12,207 bases of DNA from an uncultured Oscillospiraceae bacterium. GTDB lineage: Bacteria > Bacillota > Clostridia > Oscillospirales > Ruminococcaceae. A model generated the notes under the pieces. It did not search any database. It had not been told where the DNA came from and saw nothing but the letters and a program-made list of their open reading frames with translations. The stretch covers positions 1 to 12,207 of the forward strand of contig CAKSGA010000071.1 of NCBI GenBank assembly GCA_934454435.1, given 5' to 3'. The translations under genes and the position numbers were made by a program. Shown here piece by piece: positions 1 to 12,207 of the stretch (position 1 is its first letter; every line of letters begins with the position of its first letter).

Positions 1-2115
1 ATGATAGAGCTGCCAAGGCTGGACGACCAGAAATACACTGAAATAGTCGAAGCGGCAAAGCGTCGTATACCCGTGATATTCCCGGAGTGGACGGACTTCA
101 ACGAGCACGACCCGGGTATCACGATTATAGAGCTGTTTGCATGGCTCAAAGAAATGCAGCAGTACACCCTTGACAGAATACCGGACAGCACCCGGGAGGC
201 TATGCTGCTCCTCGCCGGAGCAGAGCCCCGCAGACCGGCGCCCGCAAAGACAAGGCTCGGGTTCAGCGGTGAGGTCCCGGGGCGGCTCCCGGCAGGCAGC
301 AGTGCAGTTTCTGCGGACGGCACGAAGTTCACGCTGACGGAGCCCTTCGTCAGCCAGGAATTCTCAGTGCGCAGCGTGTTCATGCGCAGCGCAGAGGGCT
401 TCGTGGACGTAACTGGCATTTCCGCAGAGCCGGGCACGGCTTTCTATCCTTTCGGTGCGGAGCTTGACTGCGCCGGGCGTTCCCTCTTCATACAGACCGA
501 TGCCCCGGTACAGGAGCTCACGCTGGATATCATCGCTGACGACCGCTGCGAGGTTGCGAGAAATCCCTACGACAGCGATGACGGAGCGCCCCGGAGGATA
601 GTCTGGGAGTACTCCACGGCAGGCAGGTTCAGGGAGTGCACAGTGCTGCGGGACGAAACCCACGGGCTGTCGTTTTCCGGCAGGCTCACGCTGCACACGG
701 GCGATGATATGGCGGCGTGTCAGGCGGAAGTCCCGGCGGCGGGGATCTGGCTGCGTGCCAGGGTGGAGTACGGCGGCTGCGAGGATATGCCGCTGCTGTC
801 AGGGATATTCACGAACACTGTTGAGCTCACCCAGAAGCACCGTGAGAGCGCATTCAGGGACGTGTTCCTGGAGGACGGCAGAGCAGAGGTGGAGGACGTA
901 CTGGCGGTCAGCGGTCAGCGAATGGTGATGCTTCGTGACGAGCACGGCTGGCTCGATATCCCCAACCCGGAGGAAGAGATCACGGGCAGCAGGGTGCGGT
1001 TTGACCTTTCGCAGTACTCCGGAATGACATCAGGGGACGGCAGCCCGGATGTCCGTGTGATATTCTGCACGAACGATTTCGGAAACAGGATCGCATTTTC
1101 CTCGGACGGACTTTCCTGCCAGGAGTTCCCGTTCGACCCGGAGGGCACGCTGATTTCTGAGGACCTGCATGTTATGGTCCGGGACAGGAGCGACAGCAGC
1201 TTCCCCAGGTGGAATGAATATTCATATATTGACGACCTTGCCCGGGCTGGAGCCTACGACCGGGTGTTCACATACGATGAAAAGCGCAGGGTCATCGCAT
1301 TCGGAGATAACGAGAACGGGGAAGTTCCGCCGATCGGGAATGATAATATACTGATAATTTCCTGCTCCCTGACCAGTGGGGCTCACGGAAATATCTCGGC
1401 GGGAAACCTCAGCGAGATACGTACTGAGAGCGGCAGCTTCGCCGTTACCCAGCCGATGGCTGCGGGCGGGGGCTGCGACCGGGAAAGCTATGAGGCTTCC
1501 CTGAGAAGGTTCCGCTATGAGCTTTCCGACTGCCGCAGGGCTGTTTCTGCAGAGGACTGCCGCAGGCTGGCGCTGAGAACTCCCGGTCTGCGCATTGCGG
1601 ACGTCAGGGCGATACCATTCTTCGACCCGGACGATCAGTACGCACCCAAGGAAAAGCTGCGGGACGTTATGACCCTTGCGGTGCTCCCATACAGCAGGAG
1701 CAGGTTCCCGGTGCCGGATGAGGGGTTCCTTGCTGCGGTAAGGAACCACATGGAAAAAAGCCGTCTGCTCACTGTGGAGCTCAAGACCTGCGCACCGCTG
1801 TATGTCATGATAAACATCAGTGCGGAGATCATCTGCGGTTCCAGCGAGGTGGGTCAGGTAAGGAAGAATGCGGAGCAGCTCCTGCGGGGAATGTTCAGCA
1901 TTTACTCCGGCGACGGCAGGAGCAGGTTCGGCGAGCCGGTGCGTGAGGCCGACCTCATAGCCGGGCTGTGCAGCGTTGAGGGAGTCCTTGCGGTGAAGTA
2001 CCTGAATATGACCACCGACCGCCCGGAGTGCAGACGCACTTCCGCAGGCATAGAGATACCGCCGCATGCGATAGCGTGCTGCGGCGCCGTGGAACTCATC
2101 ACGGCAGAAAGATAA
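1..2115 (+). CDS. Baseplate J / Afp11-like baseplate wedge protein of a contractile injection system
   Basis: Encodes 704 residues, in the usual range for 'putative baseplate assembly proteins' of contractile injection systems, relatives of phage T4 gp6/P2 gpJ that build the baseplate wedges linking hub to sheath. The N-terminus carries the family block: a start like IELPRLDD, then EWTDFNEHDPGITIIELFAW at residues 29-48. The C-terminal third has the Baseplate-J signature: GNISAG near residues 462-467, an AAGGGCDRES glycine turn at 487-496, and RAVSAED at 513-519, the last matching the usual RAVT..D helix start. The middle is beta-rich and more divergent. The ATG is the first base of the window, so an upstream start or ribosome binding site cannot be judged; the family-like N-terminus makes it plausible. 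The TAA stop at 2113 lies 24 nt before the next gene. Family call is secure; position in the particle is by homology. Confidence 0.92.
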   Translation: MIELPRLDDQKYTEIVEAAKRRIPVIFPEWTDFNEHDPGITIIELFAWLKEMQQYTLDRIPDSTREAMLLLAGAEPRRPAPAKTRLGFSGEVPGRLPAGSSAVSADGTKFTLTEPFVSQEFSVRSVFMRSAEGFVDVTGISAEPGTAFYPFGAELDCAGRSLFIQTDAPVQELTLDIIADDRCEVARNPYDSDDGAPRRIVWEYSTAGRFRECTVLRDETHGLSFSGRLTLHTGDDMAACQAEVPAAGIWLRARVEYGGCEDMPLLSGIFTNTVELTQKHRESAFRDVFLEDGRAEVEDVLAVSGQRMVMLRDEHGWLDIPNPEEEITGSRVRFDLSQYSGMTSGDGSPDVRVIFCTNDFGNRIAFSSDGLSCQEFPFDPEGTLISEDLHVMVRDRSDSSFPRWNEYSYIDDLARAGAYDRVFTYDEKRRVIAFGDNENGEVPPIGNDNILIISCSLTSGAHGNISAGNLSEIRTESGSFAVTQPMAAGGGCDRESYEASLRRFRYELSDCRRAVSAEDCRRLALRTPGLRIADVRAIPFFDPDDQYAPKEKLRDVMTLAVLPYSRSRFPVPDEGFLAAVRNHMEKSRLLTVELKTCAPLYVMINISAEIICGSSEVGQVRKNAEQLLRGMFSIYSGDGRSRFGEPVREADLIAGLCSVEGVLAVKYLNMTTDRPECRRTSAGIEIPPHAIACCGAVELITAER

Positions 2116-2139: not shown

Positions 2140-3282
2140 TTGAACAGATCAAGATCGTACATAACGCTCAACCGTCCGTCGGAGTGGCAGCGCTGCCTGC
2201 TGAGCGGCATGGAGATATCCGGCGGCAGCGTGGTTTCAGCCGGTAGCCGGGCGGAATGCACGATGATAACCGGCTCGGCGGACTCCACGGAGCATGGGTT
2301 CATGTGGCGCAGCCTGGAGCTGTCGGCGCATTCCGGCGAGAACACGATAATAAGGGTCAGCGCCTATGCGGCGGACACCACGGTCATTTCGGCGGGGGGA
2401 AGAACCCTGGAGCTCGACAGCCTCCTCAGGGACGGCACAGTCAGCCCGGAAGAACGCCTGGGGATTATCTCGGGGCTGTTTACACCGATAGGCACTAATT
2501 ACACCGACGTCCCGGTGAACCTGCGTGGAAGATACATCTGGATAAAGCTGGACTTCATGATGCTGGACCGGGAGCCGGTGGAGGTCACGAAGCTGAAGCT
2601 GCTGCTGAAAAGCGAGAGCATGATGCAGTATCTCCCGGAGATGTACCGTGCTGCGGACGGCGAAAACGGCTTTATGACCCGCTTCATGTCGATATTCGAC
2701 AGCATATTCTTCGATATGGACGAGCGGATAGAAAAGGCACGCAGCTCGCTGGATCCCCGCATTGCGGAGGGCGACATGCTGCGTTATCTTGCGGACTGGA
2801 TAATGACCGAGGACGCCGCATATCTCAGCACTGAGGAGCTTCGTGAAAAGATACGCCGCACCGCCCGGGAATACCGCAGCATCGGCACCCGCCAGGGACT
2901 TTCTGACTGGATAGAGCAGGAATACGGCGTAAAGCCGAACATAATCGAGCATTTCAGCGTCAAGAAGCTGGTGAGCGGGGGAAAAGACCGGGAAGTATAC
3001 CGGCGGCTGTTCGGTACTGATCCGTATAAATTCTACGTCCTGCTGCCGGAAAAGACCTTTGCGGACACGCATGCGGCGAACATTTTCACCGAAAAGCTGA
3101 AAAACAGGATACCGGCGTATACGGAGGCAGAGGTCGTTATCCTGAAACGGAACGTTATCCTTGAGAACCACACTTATCTCGGCGTGAACTCAGTCATCAG
3201 CGGATATTCCTGTGCGGAAGCCGACGCAGGCAGTATCGCCGGAGATATTATTTTAGGAGGAAGCAACGATGAAGAACAGTAA
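2140..3282 (+). CDS. Phage tail protein I / Afp12-like baseplate protein
   Basis: Encodes 380 residues beginning at a TTG with a good Shine-Dalgarno sequence. The C-terminal half is a phage tail protein I domain of the kind that pairs with Baseplate J proteins at the outer baseplate (P2 gpI, Afp12/Pvc12 class). Visible family marks are QYLPEMYR at 163-170, a helical segment with FMSIFDSIFFDMDERIE, a DPR followed by LRYLADW, then a helix ending in YRSIGTRQGLSDWIEQEYG around 246-264; the xGTRxGL motif is typical. The first 160 residues are a beta-rich, WxRxLxL-type domain not found in the short phage gpI proteins and may be a sandwich that contacts other baseplate or fibre parts (inference). 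It follows the baseplate J gene by 24 nt and its end overlaps the next gene by 14 nt, the expected order in such loci. Confidence 0.9.
   Translation: MNRSRSYITLNRPSEWQRCLLSGMEISGGSVVSAGSRAECTMITGSADSTEHGFMWRSLELSAHSGENTIIRVSAYAADTTVISAGGRTLELDSLLRDGTVSPEERLGIISGLFTPIGTNYTDVPVNLRGRYIWIKLDFMMLDREPVEVTKLKLLLKSESMMQYLPEMYRAADGENGFMTRFMSIFDSIFFDMDERIEKARSSLDPRIAEGDMLRYLADWIMTEDAAYLSTEELREKIRRTAREYRSIGTRQGLSDWIEQEYGVKPNIIEHFSVKKLVSGGKDREVYRRLFGTDPYKFYVLLPEKTFADTHAANIFTEKLKNRIPAYTEAEVVILKRNVILENHTYLGVNSVISGYSCAEADAGSIAGDIILGGSNDEEQ
3255..3260 (+). promoter_or_regulatory. Ribosome binding site inside the end of the upstream gene
   Basis: AGGAGG sits 8 nt before the ATG at 3269 and lies within the last codons of the tail protein I gene. 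Together with the 14 nt overlap it implies translational coupling of the two products. Confidence 0.7.
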
Positions 3283-5089
3283 TTTCTTTCCGCTTGAGCG
3301 AAACAGATATTTCTACGGAAAAATGCTGACGGCGAGGGATTTTGAAACGGAGCAGCGCTATTTCAACAACAAGCGCAGGCTGCTCAACAGGACGCTTTAC
3401 GGCGCAGGCGTGGTTTGCGGACTCGGCGTCTGCCGCAATGATGACGTTTCTTTCTCTGTAGAAACTGGCATGGCGCTGGACTACATGGGCAGGGAGATAT
3501 GCGTTCCCGCCCCGGTGATAAGAAAACTGCGCATGGTGGAGGGCTGCGAGAGCCTTGAGAAGTCCGACCGTGCATACCTCTGCCTACAGTATGCCCAGGA
3601 GGAGCGTGAGCCGGTCAACAACATCGGCGCAGCGGACAGCGGCAGCGAGCAGTACAACAAGATAGAGGAGAGCTACAGGCTGTACCTCTCCACCGACGAG
3701 CCCGACCTTTCCGAGATATGCGGAGGGGCAGGCGTCAACAGCGTGTCTGTGGTGTACAGCTCCCATGGGCTGAGGATAGTCAGGGTGGTCCCGAAGCTGG
3801 CGGTTTCCGGCAACGAGCTGACGGTCAGATTTATCGTGATCAAGGGGATTGACGACCCGCAGGTCTCCTTTGCGTATTCGTTCAGCGCAGACTATTTCCA
3901 CTCCGGCGGGGACGAGGTTTCAAGGCTGAGCTTCACCGAAGATACCAGCCTGCACGGCGATGTGTTCAACGTGGATTTCACGTTCAGCTGCGCCGAGGCT
4001 GCGGATATCTCCGTGCCTCTCCATAAGGACAGGGCGGTGATAACCGTCCAGATGGGCGATATCACGGATAAGGTGCAGGTAGAAGCGCCTGAGATATATC
4101 TTTGCAGGGACGCCGAAAGCTGTTCCCTCATGCGTGAAACCCGAATGAGCACACTCGAAAAGCACATCGGCGGTGAGAATACTCCCATATATCTTGCAAA
4201 GGTGGACTGCATGAATATCGGCACGGGGTTCATCATCAGGCACATCACGCCGCTGCCCTTTGCACAGCGTGTGAATTCCGTAATGTTTGACGAGCACACC
4301 TCTGCTGTCCCGGAGCCGGTACAGACGTCCTCCGCAAAGCCGGAGAATATCCTGCGTGGCGGTGTTGCGACCGAGGTGGAAACTCTGGAGTACTGGCAGA
4401 AGCCCCAGGTCTCTGCGGTCTACAGCAATAAGGATAAGCGCCTGAACTTCCGGTTCGGGATCCCCTCTGCGGAAGCCTACGACTATGCGACTTCCTCCGG
4501 CGTGTGCGATATCCCGATATCCGGCGCCATTCGTGTGAACGCAAAGTTCTTTTCAGAGGATATACCGCATAACCTCGGCATAGGCGATGTCAGCATAACG
4601 GTTTCGGTGGAGTATGACGACGGCGGCGACAGGAAGCTGCTGTTCGGCGATGGCGAAATATTTGCGGCAAAGAACGAAAAGTCAGTTCCGAAGATACAGG
4701 CGGCAGCGCTTCTCAGCCCTGATAAGGGGACGTTCCGCATCGGGATACGCCTGTCGGATTATGTTGAGGGCCACAGCGTGAGGGTACGCTGGTTTGCTTA
4801 CAAACCCACCAGGGACACGGCGCAGATGAGATACCGTGACAATATCGTGATACGCATCAGCCCGGATATCCAGAAGCTCAAGCCCCTTGAGAGGGTACGC
4901 TTCATGGCAGAGGTAAGCGGCACGGAGGACAAATCAGTCACATGGTCGGTCAGCGATCCCGAGGGCGGAAGCATTGACGACAACGGACTTTACCAGGCGC
5001 CCTCCGTTGAGGGGACCTATGAGATCGTTGCATGCAGCAATGCGGACGGTGAGAGCAGGACCTCGGCTTTCGTGCTGGTAGAGGAGTAA
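3269..5089 (+). CDS. CIS-associated protein with conserved N-terminal block and C-terminal Ig-like domain
   Basis: Encodes 606 residues, no signal peptide and no membrane segment. Residues 12-54 form a strongly patterned block (NRYFYGKMLTARDFETEQRY, then NKRRLLNRTLYGAGVVCGL) followed by a beta segment with ETGMALDYMGREI. I recall this 'YFxGKLLTxxDFxxEQxYxxxKRRLxNRxLxGxGxVCGL' pattern in uncharacterised proteins encoded beside baseplate genes in non-enterobacterial CIS loci; no activity is known to me. The centre (about 150-520) is beta-rich. The last ~80 residues (528-606) look like a bacterial Ig-like fold: VTWSV with W559, a GSIDDNGLYQAP turn, and a closing ATxSAFVLV-like strand. It overlaps the tail protein I gene by 14 nt, suggesting a particle component made in matched amounts, perhaps a baseplate rim or fibre-like part. 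The particle role is inferred from position only. Confidence 0.8.
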   Translation: MKNSNFFPLERNRYFYGKMLTARDFETEQRYFNNKRRLLNRTLYGAGVVCGLGVCRNDDVSFSVETGMALDYMGREICVPAPVIRKLRMVEGCESLEKSDRAYLCLQYAQEEREPVNNIGAADSGSEQYNKIEESYRLYLSTDEPDLSEICGGAGVNSVSVVYSSHGLRIVRVVPKLAVSGNELTVRFIVIKGIDDPQVSFAYSFSADYFHSGGDEVSRLSFTEDTSLHGDVFNVDFTFSCAEAADISVPLHKDRAVITVQMGDITDKVQVEAPEIYLCRDAESCSLMRETRMSTLEKHIGGENTPIYLAKVDCMNIGTGFIIRHITPLPFAQRVNSVMFDEHTSAVPEPVQTSSAKPENILRGGVATEVETLEYWQKPQVSAVYSNKDKRLNFRFGIPSAEAYDYATSSGVCDIPISGAIRVNAKFFSEDIPHNLGIGDVSITVSVEYDDGGDRKLLFGDGEIFAAKNEKSVPKIQAAALLSPDKGTFRIGIRLSDYVEGHSVRVRWFAYKPTRDTAQMRYRDNIVIRISPDIQKLKPLERVRFMAEVSGTEDKSVTWSVSDPEGGSIDDNGLYQAPSVEGTYEIVACSNADGESRTSAFVLVEE

Positions 5090-5113: not shown

Positions 5114-5848
5114 TTGCAGATGATCATCGACAGCGGAAGGTATAAAGTCACGGAAGTACTGAGATCGCACACCGGCTTTGAAGCAGCGCTCTGCTGTGAT
5201 GTTACGGTGAGCTCCGACAGTAAATTCATCGTTGATCAGTACAGCAATATGGCGTATATCCGTGAGTTGCTGCCGCTGTTCTACGACCTTGAGAAAAAGC
5301 GTTTCAAGGGGCTCCGCAGACTTGTCACCGCAAGCGGGAGCTTCTCGGCAGTGTTCGTGTATCATTCAGGGACGCCGTTTGAGGAGTATTTCAGCGTTCC
5401 CTCCCGGGACTATGAAAAGACGATAAAATTTGCGGACAGCATGCTCTGCGGCGCACTGGAGTTCGACCTTGCGGACGACCGCACCGCAGCCTGCGGACTT
5501 ATGATGGAAAACGCCGTGGTCGATGAGATGGAAAATCAGGTGCACTTCAACCTGCTGCTGGACCCTGACATTACCGGCGGAAGCAACTTCCGCACGGTAC
5601 GGCTCGGGAAAATGCTGGACAGAATGTTCCGCAGGGACAGGTACTTCCCGGACGAGATAGGCGGACTGATAGACGCAATGTGCGAGGGAGAATACAGCAG
5701 CTGCGCCGCAGCCTATTCCGCCTGGAGAGGCATTCAGCAGTCAGCGGAAAAGACCCGGGAGCAGTATCTACGGGAAGGCCTGTTCGCATACCTGGGCAGA
5801 AAGGTCCGCACCAGAAAAAAACAGCGCAGGAAGCGTAGAAATGCATAG
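5114..5848 (+). CDS. Uncharacterised 244-residue protein, possible degenerate kinase-like fold
   Basis: Encodes 244 residues, soluble, with no signal or membrane segment. I do not recognise a named family with confidence. The order of elements resembles a eukaryotic-type protein kinase that has lost its motifs. A RYKVTEVL start with a short T-G-F-E turn looks like a glycine-loop hairpin (10-25), FSAVFVYHSGTPFEEYF resembles the hinge and first C-lobe helix, and MMENAVVDEMENQVHFN (130-146) resembles a catalytic loop with ENxxVD but no HRD; FNL stands where DFG would be. No VAIK-type lysine is apparent (DQY follows FIV). The last ~20 residues are extremely basic (RTRKKQRRKRR), suitable for binding acidic lipid heads, nucleic acid or an acidic partner. 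The gene sits between structural CIS genes and the membrane receptor, 24 and 28 nt away. An adaptor role is speculation. Confidence 0.75.
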   Translation: MQMIIDSGRYKVTEVLRSHTGFEAALCCDVTVSSDSKFIVDQYSNMAYIRELLPLFYDLEKKRFKGLRRLVTASGSFSAVFVYHSGTPFEEYFSVPSRDYEKTIKFADSMLCGALEFDLADDRTAACGLMMENAVVDEMENQVHFNLLLDPDITGGSNFRTVRLGKMLDRMFRRDRYFPDEIGGLIDAMCEGEYSSCAAAYSAWRGIQQSAEKTREQYLREGLFAYLGRKVRTRKKQRRKRRNA

Positions 5849-5876: not shown

Positions 5877-8630
5877 ATGGTAAAAAAGACGATAAGCTTT
5901 ATCGTTATACTTCTTATATTCTGCACGACAGGGGCGGCTCTGCTCATCGGCACCTCGAACTTCGGACTGGGGTTCGGCGGTATCACTGAAAAGACAGTAA
6001 GCAGCACCTACGCCCTGGACCGAGCAGGGGATATCTACTACATAAGCGACAGCGGAACGAATAAAAACCTTGTGTGTATCGACTCGGCGGGCAAGCGCCT
6101 GTTCGAGAAGCGGCTCTCGCCGGAGGTGTTCGGCAGCAGCTTCGCACCGGCGGGGATATACGTCGAGCATGACAAGGGGATATACCTCACAACATATGAG
6201 TTCGACCCGAAAACGCTGTTCATCACCCGGGCGGTGGTACATAGCTTTTACGAGGACGGTACCTATGCCGGGGAGGTCTTTTCGCAAAAGACCTCAAGGT
6301 ACATGAACGGGCAGTCAGTGCTGATCTCTTCATTCAGCGAGGACGACAATTCCGTATACTTTGCGCTGCTTGACAATGGCTCCGCCGAGGTGTTCTCAGT
6401 CCTGAAGAACAACTCAGAGCCTGCAGCGAAGATAGCGGGTTATGAGCTCCCGGACCGTGATATCTATGGAGCATACACATTCTCTGACGGCAGCGTTGCG
6501 CTCGGGCTCGAGGGCGGGCTTTCCATACTCGACCGCAGCGGCGGGCGCAGCCTTGGCAACGTAAGGCAGGGTGCAGTTTTCGACCGCTTCTGGAACGGTA
6601 TCGATCTTGTCTACATGATGGACTCGGCGACCGGAGATATCTTCACGCTTTCAAAGGACCTGTCGATCTCTGCGGCGCTTTCCGGAAGCAGGATAATCAA
6701 CGCCGAGGAAGCACTGACCCCAGCTGATCTCACCAGTGTTTCCGTGGGCATAACCGGTAACATATTCGGCTGCATACATGATGAGAGCGAGCGGCTGTAT
6801 TACGGCAGCTTCTCGGTGATGTCAAGAATATTCACCGATGATGTTGACCGCAGCACGCAGATAAATTCCATACTCACACTGGCGGCGGTGGCGGTCGGCG
6901 TGATACTGCTGACGATACTCACCTGGGACTTCTACGTCAGCATTCTTAAAATGCACCTTTCGATACTGCTCCGGCAGTCGCTGCTGATGATAATGCTGAT
7001 TTTCATCGTGCTGTATTCCCTTTCGTATCTCATAATAATCCCCCAGGTGGAGAACATCGTTACCGGAAACTACAGCCACGAAGCACAGCTCATCGCAAAT
7101 TCCTTTGAGGACTCCATGAAGGGTGCAGCCGGGGACGCTCCCAGGTATTCCGACTATGAGGAGCTGTTTGCAGCAGAGGGCAGAGCGGCGGCCTGTGCAG
7201 ACCCGGAGGACGGTTCCGAGGGCAATGATGAAAAGCCGCAGGTCCATCTTGCTGAAATAAAGGACGGCAGAATGCGCCTTATCGCTTCTACCAACCTTTA
7301 CCCTGCGGGGACCTCCGCAGACCGGCTCGCTTACGGCATGAACCTTACCGGCGAAGCAGAGCGCATGACCTCGGACGAGAGCTTCTTCATGAAGAACGGT
7401 ATCGAGGGCGACAAGATGTTCCTTCTCCGCAGGACCTCCGTCCCGGTGACAACGAATGACGTCTACCTTATCGTGGGTATTCGCATAAGCAGCCTTTCCA
7501 GTGCAGTGGAGAATATCCAGCGGCTGATAAACCTGTTCCTTGTCGGAGGCGGACTGGTGCTCGTAGTGATCTTCATGATCATTGAGAACATCACAGCCGG
7601 CGCAGTGCGCAAGCTGAAGCGCTCCGTGGACAGTATAGCGGCGGGCGAGTATAACGTTCCTATAAACATCAGCACCGGCGACGAGATCGAGGAGCTGTCG
7701 AAGTCGGTAAGGGCGCTTTCCGACCACATCGTTGAAAAGACCACCAGCCTTGAAAAGCTGAACAATTCCTACTACCGCTTCGTTCCGCTGAGCTTCCTGA
7801 AGAACCTCGGAGAAACACAGATAGAGCGTGTGGACAAATCTCTGCATTCCAAGCGCCGAATGGCTGTTCTGCTGCTGCGGTTCAATATGTCGGACGCTGA
7901 AAAGATGATGGGCTCCCAGGATATTTTCGAGAGCATAAACGGCGTGTTCGAGCAGCTTATCCCCATAATCGGCGAGAACGGAGGCACGGCGTATAATTTC
8001 CTGTACAACGGTTTCAGTGCGATATTCAACAAGTCCGATGACGCCCTGCGTGCGGCTATCAAGATGAGAGAGTCCGCAGCGGCTTACAACGAGGTCTGCC
8101 GAATACGTGGCAAGCGTACCGCAGATGTTCGTGTGGTAATAAGCGAGGGCGATGTGCTCCTTGGCTTTATCGGCGATGATAAGCGAATGGAGCCCTCCGC
8201 AGTGTCCGGTGTTATCACCGGGGCTGAGGAGATCGAGAAGCTCTGTGACGACAGCGGGCTTTACATAGTCTGCACCGAGGAAGCGTTCCGCACCCTGCCC
8301 GCTGAGAGATACCGCAGCAGGCGTATAGGCGAATTTGCGGCCTCGGGTACCGGTACGACCAGCCTGTACGATATGTTCGACAGCGACCCATATGCGATGA
8401 TAAAGCTCAAGGAGCAGTTCAGCGCTGAGTTCGCAGCGGCGGTGGAGCTCTTTGAAAAGGGCGACTTCATAAGCGCCCGCACCCGCTTCATGAATATCGT
8501 GAAATACGCCCCGGACGACGGTGCGGCAAGAAACTACCTCTACCTTGCGGAGCACAATATAAACTCCGGCAGGCGCAGGCTCACCTATCGCATTTATGAT
8601 GAAAGCACCTCTGCATGGAAGGACATGTGA
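5877..8630 (+). CDS. Multi-pass membrane receptor: two extracytoplasmic regions, HAMP, degenerate class III cyclase domain
   Basis: Encodes 917 residues from the ATG at 5877. Order: membrane helix at ~5-25; a ~300-residue extracytoplasmic region with repeated Y.sDsGT/D-G beta hairpins resembling a propeller sensor; helices at ~331-352 and ~362-390 joined by a short loop; a second extracytoplasmic region (~392-550) resembling Cache sensors; a helix at ~552-574; a HAMP linker (~577-630, with GDEIEEL at 601-607); YRFVP (633-637); a cyclase fold (~655-835); and a C-terminal TPR-like helical pair (~845-900). In adenylate/guanylate cyclases the first metal aspartate follows VLFS; here the stretch is VLLLRF with R668. 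The second, in the G-D-A turn, is N711. The nucleotide Asn/Arg positions read T781 and E785. No catalysis is therefore expected; a signalling or scaffold role is inferred. It lies 28 nt after the small basic protein gene and 3 nt before the MORN gene. Confidence 0.88.
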   Translation: MVKKTISFIVILLIFCTTGAALLIGTSNFGLGFGGITEKTVSSTYALDRAGDIYYISDSGTNKNLVCIDSAGKRLFEKRLSPEVFGSSFAPAGIYVEHDKGIYLTTYEFDPKTLFITRAVVHSFYEDGTYAGEVFSQKTSRYMNGQSVLISSFSEDDNSVYFALLDNGSAEVFSVLKNNSEPAAKIAGYELPDRDIYGAYTFSDGSVALGLEGGLSILDRSGGRSLGNVRQGAVFDRFWNGIDLVYMMDSATGDIFTLSKDLSISAALSGSRIINAEEALTPADLTSVSVGITGNIFGCIHDESERLYYGSFSVMSRIFTDDVDRSTQINSILTLAAVAVGVILLTILTWDFYVSILKMHLSILLRQSLLMIMLIFIVLYSLSYLIIIPQVENIVTGNYSHEAQLIANSFEDSMKGAAGDAPRYSDYEELFAAEGRAAACADPEDGSEGNDEKPQVHLAEIKDGRMRLIASTNLYPAGTSADRLAYGMNLTGEAERMTSDESFFMKNGIEGDKMFLLRRTSVPVTTNDVYLIVGIRISSLSSAVENIQRLINLFLVGGGLVLVVIFMIIENITAGAVRKLKRSVDSIAAGEYNVPINISTGDEIEELSKSVRALSDHIVEKTTSLEKLNNSYYRFVPLSFLKNLGETQIERVDKSLHSKRRMAVLLLRFNMSDAEKMMGSQDIFESINGVFEQLIPIIGENGGTAYNFLYNGFSAIFNKSDDALRAAIKMRESAAAYNEVCRIRGKRTADVRVVISEGDVLLGFIGDDKRMEPSAVSGVITGAEEIEKLCDDSGLYIVCTEEAFRTLPAERYRSRRIGEFAASGTGTTSLYDMFDSDPYAMIKLKEQFSAEFAAAVELFEKGDFISARTRFMNIVKYAPDDGAARNYLYLAEHNINSGRRRLTYRIYDESTSAWKDM

Positions 8631-10366: not shown

Positions 10367-11641
10367 ATGAAACGTTATACAGCGGTCCTTGCGGCGGCGT
10401 CTGCGGGGCTGTTCATAACAGCGAATGCGGCAGCTTACGGGCTGTTCTGTGAGAACTCCACGGCAGTTCCTGCCATGGCGGGGTATGCTGATCAGATGGT
10501 TTCCGTCAGCGAGAGGTTTGAAGCTGCGCTGACCGCTCCGGAGCTCCCGGAGGGCACGGAGGAAGCCCAGCCCGGGGAGACCGCCGCTGATCTTTACTGC
10601 CAGCGAATGGAACTGTACAGCGGTTTCACGCAGGAGCTTTCCGGGCAGGAATATTCCCTTGCGGGAAAGCTGATAGATTATGACCTCATGCTGAAAAGGC
10701 TTGAGCACGGCACCGGGCAGTATTCAAAGCTGAAATCGAATGCCGGGAAGCTCGCCGCCGGGTATCTCGTAGGCGAATGCACGAAGCAGGAAGCGGACGA
10801 AGCCGAAAAACAGCGCAGCGACAAGTATTTCGAGCTTGAAAGCCTGCTGTTCGAGATAAGTACGCTGAAATCTGATATCGAGAGCATGACCGGTGAAACG
10901 CTGAAGTCGGATTTTGATTTCAGTGCGGCGTACCTTATTACAGACGCATTGAAGCTCTCCGCAGAGGAGCTTTCAGCGTGGGGAGCTCCCGGGACGATAT
11001 GCGCTCCCGCCGGAGCTGAAACGGCTCAGGAGAGTTCGGACATCACCTCGCAGTACACCGCCGCAGTCAAGAACTACTACGCCCTGGGCGAAGCACTCAG
11101 GAACTATGTGGACGCTGCCAGGTCCTGTGAAACGGCGCAGCAGGATTACCGCCTGGGAACAGTCACGGCCTCACAGCTTGAGGCAGCGGAGGACGCATTC
11201 GGCGAGGCAAAGCTGGCGGCTCTCTCAGCAAAGGCGGACTATGCGAAGTCGCTGCTGGAGCTGGACAGCGCAAGCGGCGGAGCGCTCACGGCGGGCAGCG
11301 GCGTCAGCGGAGGTCTGGCAGAAGCGTTACGCAGCGTGCTCCCGGAAAGCCTGCGTGGTAGCGGTATGTGGCTTACCCGCAGGAGCGGGGACAGGGTCAT
11401 GCTGAGCGTAGGCTCCATGCCCGTGGAATTCGACCCGGAAAAGGACAGCGGCGAAGTCGAGGTCAGCTATAACGGGACGCTACTGGGAACCGCAGCGGTG
11501 GGTCAGGGCGTTGTCTTTGAAGCCCCGGAGCCCGCTGAGGGAGTCCGCTTCGCCGAGGTGGTAATACGCAGGAACGGCAAAACAGCGGGGAAATTCCGCA
11601 TAGATATCTATTCGCCCTTCGGTGAATTTTTGGAGGAATGA
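10367..11641 (+). CDS. Secreted helical protein with two TolC-type repeats
   Basis: Encodes 424 residues. The N-terminus is a classic signal peptide (MKRYTAVLAAASAGLFITAN, then AAAYG), probably cut near residue 23. The mature part is mostly long amphipathic helices. Two copies of the outer-membrane-efflux/TolC motif occur 128 residues apart: YLVGECT at 133-139 and YRLGTVT at 261-267. Each is followed by a long heptad helix (QEADEAEKQRSDKYFELESL; SQLEAAEDAFGEAKLAAL), and the first ends in the family-like MTGETLKSDFDF. I see no clear amphipathic strands for a TolC beta-barrel, and residues ~320-424 instead make a beta-rich C-terminal domain. In TolC such repeats trimerise into a periplasm-spanning tunnel. 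The gene starts 11 nt after the MORN gene with GAGAGGTG at 10354-10361, and its stop is 1 nt from the Pvc16-like gene. An export or envelope-conduit role is inferred; it could instead be a coiled-coil cell-wall protein. Confidence 0.83.
   Translation: MKRYTAVLAAASAGLFITANAAAYGLFCENSTAVPAMAGYADQMVSVSERFEAALTAPELPEGTEEAQPGETAADLYCQRMELYSGFTQELSGQEYSLAGKLIDYDLMLKRLEHGTGQYSKLKSNAGKLAAGYLVGECTKQEADEAEKQRSDKYFELESLLFEISTLKSDIESMTGETLKSDFDFSAAYLITDALKLSAEELSAWGAPGTICAPAGAETAQESSDITSQYTAAVKNYYALGEALRNYVDAARSCETAQQDYRLGTVTASQLEAAEDAFGEAKLAALSAKADYAKSLLELDSASGGALTAGSGVSGGLAEALRSVLPESLRGSGMWLTRRSGDRVMLSVGSMPVEFDPEKDSGEVEVSYNGTLLGTAAVGQGVVFEAPEPAEGVRFAEVVIRRNGKTAGKFRIDIYSPFGEFLEE
11632..11636 (+). promoter_or_regulatory. 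Ribosome binding site of the Pvc16-like gene
   Basis: GGAGG lies in the last codons of the TolC-like gene, 6 nt before the ATG at 11643. An ATG at 11638 is followed at once by a stop in its own frame, so 11643 is the start. The arrangement implies translational coupling. Confidence 0.7.
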
Positions 11642-11642
11642 A

Positions 11643-12207
11643 ATGACAGAATACACCGTGATCTACGAAGCCGGCGAATCCCTGGCGGAGCTGCTGCGCA
11701 GCGGGCTCACGCCGGAGCCGGTGGTGAAGCGTGAGAACATCGGGCTCTGCGAGCCGCAGTCCCCGGAGGATTTTCAGCTGACGATATGGATATACAACAT
11801 TGAAATGATAAAAGATACCGGTGCCCGCACCGGATTCCAGCCCGACCCGGAGGACCCGGCAATGGAGCGCTTCGCACCCATGCAGATGAAGCTGCACCTG
11901 CTCGTTTCGGCACATTCTAAGGCTCCGGCAATACAGAAATGCGCTGATGAATACCGTATCCTCGGCAGGGCGATGCAGGTGATAAGGGACACGCCGTCCA
12001 TTCCGCCGGATCACCTGGTCGGCTCCCTGGCGGAGCAGACCGAGCCGGTACTGCTGGAGATAGTGCCGCTGAACGGCGAGGAGCTTTCCCGGGTGTGGAA
12101 CAATTCCAGCAAGACTATCCGTCCGTCTTTCGGCGTAGATATCACGCAGGTTTTCATGAGTTCCACCAGGACAAGGGAGGTCGCTCCCCGTATCACGAAG
12201 GCTCAGT
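11643..12207 (+). CDS. Pvc16/Afp16-like (DUF4255) CIS terminator/cap protein, 5' part only
   Basis: 188 codons plus one base are visible before the window ends, with no stop. The sequence has the layout of the Pvc16 N-terminal (DUF4255) domain: an N-terminal helix with an LxELLRSGL pattern, a central strand LTIWIYNIEM (46-55), a second strand QMKLHLLVSAH (81-91), the hallmark LGRAMQV helix (107-113), and then VLLEIVPLNGEELSRVWNN leading to RPSFGVDI (160-167). DUF4255 proteins are conserved in extracellular contractile injection systems; Afp16/Pvc16 is thought to terminate or cap the tube and sheath at the end opposite the baseplate. Its presence 1 nt after the TolC-like gene shows that the envelope module is embedded within the CIS locus rather than simply flanking it. 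Whether the protein has a normal C-terminus cannot be seen. Confidence 0.88.
   Translation, partial: MTEYTVIYEAGESLAELLRSGLTPEPVVKRENIGLCEPQSPEDFQLTIWIYNIEMIKDTGARTGFQPDPEDPAMERFAPMQMKLHLLVSAHSKAPAIQKCADEYRILGRAMQVIRDTPSIPPDHLVGSLAEQTEPVLLEIVPLNGEELSRVWNNSSKTIRPSFGVDITQVFMSSTRTREVAPRITKAQ

Follow-up and report, generated by a model that had tools for sequence, protein, structure and literature searches.

It is largely open how the intracellular contractile injection systems (CIS) of Gram-positive bacteria get to the membrane and what makes them fire. One answer, from Streptomyces, is CisA, a CIS-encoded membrane protein whose gene lies near the baseplate genes. Two other Gram-positive secretion systems have a pseudokinase. 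In the available part of PMC12599244, the membrane pseudokinase EssB/YukC scaffolds the type VIIb secretion system (T7SSb), and in that of PMC13037476, TraF is its structural counterpart in a Gram-positive type IV secretion system (T4SS). Here we describe a stretch of 12,207 nucleotides from an uncultured Oscillospiraceae bacterium (contig CAKSGA010000071.1, assembly GCA_934454435.1; hereafter the window), in which a gene for a 917-amino-acid (aa) membrane receptor with a cyclase-like domain lies among CIS genes (Table 1).

Like CisA, the receptor is a membrane protein encoded near CIS baseplate genes in a Gram-positive bacterium, and we propose the same job for it. As far as the available part of PMC12237407 goes, CisA is a single-pass protein with a substrate-binding-like outer domain, whereas the receptor has four hydrophobic segments and a cyclase-like C-terminus; it does not belong to the CisA family. 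The words "cyclase" and "pseudokinase" are absent from the main text of PMC12237407.

The receptor domain has the class III cyclase fold, and the closest known folds are those of the class III cyclases Cya2 (2w01), CyaC (1wc1) and CyaB (3r5g). Class III adenylate and guanylate cyclases carry a pair of metal-binding Asp residues, a base-recognition Lys/Asp pair and an Asn/Arg transition-state pair; the window protein has none of these. At the six positions, whose roles we take to be the canonical ones, it reads R, N, N, G, T, E, and the Leptolyngbya cyclase D, K, D, D, N, R. R668 and N711 occupy the two metal sites, N707 and G778 the base-contact sites, and T781 and E785 the Asn/Arg sites. From these losses the domain is predicted to be non-catalytic. 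In the AlphaFold2 model of the receptor (mean predicted local distance difference test score, pLDDT, 81; predicted template modelling score, pTM, 0.57), R668 falls within the first strand and N711 at the turn of the hairpin, the places where the two metal Asp residues are expected. A preliminary description of this DNA had recognised the cyclase homology and the replacements R668, N711, T781 and E785. Both were borne out, and the base-contact Lys/Asp pair proved to be lost as well. Its proviso that acidic residues nearby, D673 or the DD after NKS (D720/D721), might fill the metal site finds no support in the strand positions of the model, which appears to place them elsewhere.

Among 91 database homologues (P numbers below), the first metal site holds R in 72, N in 10, S in 5, H in 1, E in 1 (the misaligned P0091) and a gap in 2, and never Asp. 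The second metal site holds N in 66, D in 16 (including P0091), S in 3, E in 2, G in 1, A in 1 and a gap in 2, and no homologue has Arg at the Arg site. At the sites this alignment is out of register for P0091 and gapped for P0074 and P0080, and the conservation means omit seven rows. The first metal Asp is also absent from all 20 copies found in CIS loci, where R, N, S, W, H, T, L, G, V or Q replaces it; the reading for G224 (G numbers denote genomes), which aligns poorly at the sites, is Q in one alignment and T in another.

Linkage to CIS was rated in 391 evenly drawn genomes belonging to one class, 15 of which have Pvc16, at 16 loci. Searches for relatives by class, family and genus had an E-value cut of 1e-40; because this cut misses divergent copies, rates are drawn from the even sample alone. 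A broad C-terminal profile, for which sampled genomes supplied seven of the 16 dead CIS copies used and which therefore favours such copies, found 40 relatives in 29 sampled genomes at E 1e-8 or better. Nine lie beside CIS genes (G001, G026, G088, G161, G203, G224, G266, G321 and G338). The other 31 count as non-CIS, meaning that the genome has no Pvc16 match or that the relative is on another contig or more than 80 kb away; some of their neighbourhoods were read. The first metal Asp is present in 0/9 CIS-side and 30/31 non-CIS relatives, and the Arg in 0/9 and 23/31, respectively. Fisher's exact test on the Asp gave 3.7e-8, uncorrected for kinship; as the copies are related, this figure does not count independent events. 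The Asp exception among the non-CIS relatives comes from G006, a 0.9-Mb genome without Pvc16; in this copy Asn occupies the first metal site and Glu the second. With this half-changed copy excepted, all sampled relatives without the active-site residues are in CIS loci. The Arg site holds Lys in seven non-CIS relatives, all of 0.8-1.2-Mb genomes, and His in that of G347; because of these eight, we reserve "intact" for DKDDNR (the six positions in order) or near readings. The dead CIS copy is accompanied by an intact DKDDNR cyclase elsewhere in the same genome in five of the nine (G026, G088, G161, G203 and G266). As side observations, the G006 copy (G006:C2:147837-148622, L131) may represent a separate loss of activity, and contig C1 of G026 has two CIS loci, at 3.19 and 3.55-3.57 Mb, of which a single one has a pseudocyclase receptor.

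In total, CIS genes accompany the receptor in 20 loci read; the surroundings of the copies from the searches by class, family and genus hold, within the reach of contigs and stretches, homologues of CIS12, CIS13, baseplate, MORN or Pvc16 proteins. The placement of the receptor in a CIS operon, first noted for this one gene, holds across the family. We regard the cyclase homology, the loss of catalytic residues and the linkage to CIS as practically certain.

Four-pass receptor cyclases with the same layout, related outer domains and the active-site residues present occur in Clostridia with no CIS gene matched in the 20-kb stretch around each. Those of G059, G086 and G201 (929-939 aa) resemble the window receptor in the number and spacing of their hydrophobic segments, four in each, and carry DKDDNR, DKDENR and DKDNNR, respectively, at the six positions. 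The window CIS gene set had no match in the 20 kb around them, and Pvc16 none in those genomes. Their outer regions are related to those of the CIS family (hhalign E 2.4e-8 for the window family and 8e-12 for distant CIS copies). In a tree of 58 rows with the catalytic columns removed, the 26 dead rows group in a single clade (98/90), outside which fall the live receptors and the small-genome cyclases. The tree omits G224, G161, G088 and L081_0 as divergent and P0005 and G755 as near copies; the rows P0019, P0033, P0041 and P0063 are labelled CIS with their contigs unseen, and the program flags long branches, including those at G338, G589, G696 and the join of the live receptors with the small-genome cyclases. 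The simplest reading is one early loss of the active site in a CIS-linked lineage, followed by long conservation. With live sisters of the same layout off CIS, dead ones in CIS loci and an intact cyclase elsewhere in five of the nine sampled CIS genomes, this would make a clean evolutionary case of an enzyme becoming a receptor part. That the receptor came from a virus or a plasmid was rejected: no relative was found in viral_contigs or phage records, and the nine plasmid cyclase matches are distant (22.6-28.2% identity).

The fold of the dead cyclase domain is under purifying selection, in agreement with the earlier view that it is kept without decay. Between G755 and G758, with synonymous divergence (dS) near saturation, the cyclase-like part has a dS of 2.1, a nonsynonymous divergence (dN) of 0.040 and a dN/dS of 0.019, and the tail a dN/dS of 0.022. 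The cyclase part stays at a dN/dS of 0.23 or below in the pairs allowing calculation, dS being undefined for many of the 15 pairs. Full-length open frames of the receptor are found in many species.

The gene preceding the receptor encodes a second degenerate enzyme. Its 244-aa product has a kinase-like sequence and fold and lacks the residues of an active kinase (VAIK Lys, HRD Asp, DFG): alignments put Gly128 at the HRD Asp position, the loop Asn (N133) is retained, and a DFG is unrecognisable by eye. We conclude that the gene at 5114-5848 very probably encodes a pseudokinase. Its counterparts in G203 and G409 contain a Lys that might correspond to the VAIK Lys. The pseudokinase profile matched 15 loci, including the nine that went into building it, and 13 of the 15 have the gene between CIS13 and the receptor. 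CIS13, the pseudokinase, the pseudocyclase and the membrane MORN protein co-occur repeatedly in Clostridial CIS loci, mostly directly after the baseplate genes. EssB/YukC and TraF, so far as the available parts of PMC12599244 and PMC13037476 describe them, are likewise degenerate kinases. Pseudokinases of several other CIS loci add a C-terminal membrane segment and an outer tail; the window version differs in having no such segment, and its partner is a CIS with a pseudocyclase receptor. EssB is not among the sequence or fold matches listed for the 244-aa protein, which excludes nothing. Because this neighbour is also a pseudokinase, the unit extends beyond the receptor of the preliminary description and comprises two pseudoenzymes together with a membrane MORN protein.

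Hydropathy places the four hydrophobic segments of the receptor at residues 1-19, 331-349, 361-379 and 551-569. The model shows a first outer domain that is mostly beta, a second one of mixed structure, long membrane-spanning helices, the cyclase-like domain and a helical tail. The second outer domain has weak Cache matches, under the cut-off, in the relatives L036 and L037. Five homologues of 1222-1227 aa (P0078, P0081, P0082, P0083 and P0088) bear cell-wall-binding repeats (PF04122), which in P0083, of Desulfosporosinus type, lie by eye between membrane segments three and four. These repeats fit an outer part that touches the wall, in homologues whose membership of a CIS locus is unseen.

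Since the Clostridial module takes the position of CisA in most loci read and includes a pseudokinase, in part of similar membrane layout, we propose a receptor complex that would bind the baseplate at the membrane. On balance we favour the reading that the protein is a non-catalytic membrane receptor of an intracellular Clostridial CIS, docking the baseplate or licensing firing; its dimerisation, docking partner and trigger role we infer. The receptor would descend from a receptor cyclase with a HAMP domain, and the lineage linked to CIS would have lost the active site early on. Its extracytoplasmic domains may sense the envelope or bind the wall, and a change there could be relayed via the fourth membrane helix, the HAMP domain and the RFVP linker to a dimeric pseudocyclase and its helical tail. 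Pseudocyclase, tail and pseudokinase would together form a protein-binding switch that docks the baseplate, on its CIS12/CIS13 side, at the cytoplasmic membrane. The same switch might license firing, the baseplate being released or triggered upon an outside cue, and the membrane MORN protein may belong to the same complex. Of the jobs first suggested for the domain, sensing of a nucleotide or cyclic nucleotide in the former active site ranks as the least likely, since the Lys and Asp of the base contact have gone too; docking, dimerisation and signal relay are better fits.

More tentatively, these loci could represent a Clostridial class of membrane-anchored CIS with a trans-envelope complex of pseudokinase, pseudocyclase and membrane MORN protein. 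Such a complex would be a functional counterpart of CisA or of the membrane complex of the type VI secretion system (T6SS), and would have arisen from a second-messenger receptor turned mechanical or docking switch. With the T6SS trans-envelope complex it would share the role of holding a contractile machine at the membrane; the two are likened by role alone, and the envelope type differs. The receptor module is a defined candidate set in another phylum than that of CisA, encoded with the baseplate genes. If the proposal is true, contractile machines would join those of EssB/YukC and TraF as a third kind of secretion system in Gram-positive bacteria that has a pseudokinase. The dead enzymes in CIS loci suggest that certain Clostridia have put worn-out enzymes to use in keeping the machine at the membrane or setting it off there.

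Several observations weigh against the docking receptor. It is missing from 7/16 Pvc16 loci of the sample, namely those of G137, G200, G202, G243, G295 and G367, genomes without a profile match, and the second locus of G026. These loci match the window CIS12 and CIS13 weakly or not at all, and the receptor therefore marks one kind of CIS. The losses at the active site are uneven: 15/91 homologues (P0091 excluded) retain the second metal Asp, and the G612 CIS copy retains that Asp as well as the base Asp and the Arg. The locus is unseen for six dead rows of the tree (P0076, P0083, P0087, P0089, P0090 and P0092), so that an exclusive linkage of the dead form to CIS can be claimed for the sample only. 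Most CIS-locus copies have the four-segment layout, but those of G203 and G696 have two hydrophobic segments and that of G321 is a 320-aa frame without a membrane part. The pseudokinase was not found at the G026, G338, G321 and G646 loci (the G321 and G646 contigs end before its expected place), and a MORN match is absent at the G696 locus. Finally, the receptor lies beyond Pvc16 in G203, G409, G646 and G321 and in another arrangement in G338 and G026.

The four loci in which the receptor is apart from the baseplate genes would also suit a plain sensory regulator, controlling CIS synthesis or assembly via cytoplasmic partners and never contacting the particle. Its HAMP-type signalling architecture and the sensory-type genes near some loci (dCache-like in G266, PF04392 in G783 and G266, MatE-HATPase_c_2 in G646) point the same way. 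We consider such a regulator rather unlikely, since in the window the receptor gene sits among same-strand structural genes, 28 bp from the preceding and 3 bp from the following one, a Pfam scan of the eight window proteins gave no transcription-factor match, and the partner pseudokinase is of a kind serving as secretion hubs. Many pseudoenzymes retain ligand binding, and the domain might still bind a nucleotide or cyclic nucleotide and report it to the CIS. The Asn at site 781 in 54/91 homologues and the retained second-site Asp would agree with this; the base contacts, however, are gone, with Lys at 707 in 0/91 and Asp at 778 in 2/91, and we hold ligand binding to be improbable.

Class III enzymes act as dimers, and the receptor could pair with a live class III cyclase encoded elsewhere and act as the regulatory partner in this heterodimer, tying cyclic-nucleotide output to the CIS. 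The intact relatives in five of the nine CIS genomes, and another PF00211 protein in G338, would provide partners. However, residues of both half-sites, divided as we take them to be, are lost in the window domain, which could therefore complete neither, and no PF00211 match at E 0.001 was found in G001, G224 and G321, of which G001 and G321 look fragmented, judging from how many contigs they have; the heterodimer is thus quite improbable. That the gene is decaying, or a chance neighbour without CIS function, is scarcely credible: pseudogene decay is ruled out by the open frames, the conservation and the dN/dS values, CIS genes lie alongside in 20 loci, and the single hint is one TAG within the G001 copy, which is truncated at the start of a contig.

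No account of this arrangement was found in the literature searched, mostly open-licence, in line with its first being called undescribed. PMC8894135 mentions a cyclase twice, both times as a two-hybrid reporter, and the main texts of PMC8213781 and PMC10598620 have no cyclase mention. The sole paper found with both "HAMP domain" and "contractile injection system", PMC10599522, has Geobacter biofilms as its subject in the part available, and PMC4886424, likewise in part, concerns other bacterial cyclase-like proteins.

The eight genes of the window are close-packed on one strand, with spacings of -20 to 28 bp. Baseplate, CIS12/13-like and Pvc16 genes identify the window as part of a CIS locus; it is too short to reach sheath or tube, and the related G266 locus contains sheath, two gp19-type tubes, CIS_tube, AAA and eCIS_core.

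Table 1. Genes of the window, in order, with the regions of the receptor.
Feature	Position	Strand	Remarks
Baseplate protein (Baseplate_J, TIGR02243)	1..2115	+	
Tail_TIGR02242 / CIS12-like baseplate protein	2140..3282	+	
CIS13-like protein	3269..5089	+	C-terminal immunoglobulin (Ig)-like match, under cut-off
Very probable pseudokinase, 244 aa	5114..5848	+	kinase-like fold without HRD Asp
Pseudocyclase receptor, 917 aa	5877..8630	+	
First extracytoplasmic domain, residues 41-320	5997..6836	+	mostly beta (DSSP of model, hydropathy); propeller-like by strand pattern alone
Second and third membrane segments, residues 325-395	6849..7061	+	hydropathy, model
Second extracytoplasmic domain, residues 396-545	7062..7511	+	least conserved part, mean 0.475
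HAMP domain, residues 577-619	7605..7733	+	PF00672, 31.5 bits
Linker with RFVP motif, residues 625-655	7749..7841	+	best conserved part, 0.833
Class III cyclase-like domain, residues 655-842	7839..8402	+	
Helical tail, residues 843-896	8403..8564	+	TPR-like by helix pattern; conservation 0.769 over 836-896
Membrane MORN protein, 573 aa	8634..10355	+	PF02493, 74 bits
Probably exported protein, 424 aa	10367..11641	+	signal-peptide-like start (by eye)
Pvc16-like protein, cut at window end	11622..12206	+	PF14065, 88.9 bits

The MORN protein has a basic N-terminus and one membrane segment at 77-95, followed by the MORN repeats. For the probably exported protein, tblastn matches are confined to the close relatives G783, G763, G755, G758 and G266; a weak OEP match (E 0.0075) lies under the cut-off. 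In PHROGs, the receptor has weak matches of unknown function only, and the pseudokinase and the exported protein have no match.

Other genes were seen around related loci. Downstream of Pvc16, G783 and G266 encode a membrane protein and a PF04392 substrate-binding protein (L022:5275-8277 and L027:9014-11237); the membrane protein of G266 is dCache-like (E 1.7e-6, yet below the cut-off), and G783 also has a GNAT acetyltransferase. A MatE transporter with a C-terminal HATPase_c_2 domain lies near the G646 CIS genes (L033:13203-14966, + strand), and a Wadjet JetA gene beside the G026 CIS module (L038:5691-7094, - strand; PF18982, 408.7 bits). The G783 CIS locus also encodes a 1490-aa protein of many near-identical short repeats (L021:1177-5649), possibly a tape-measure variant.

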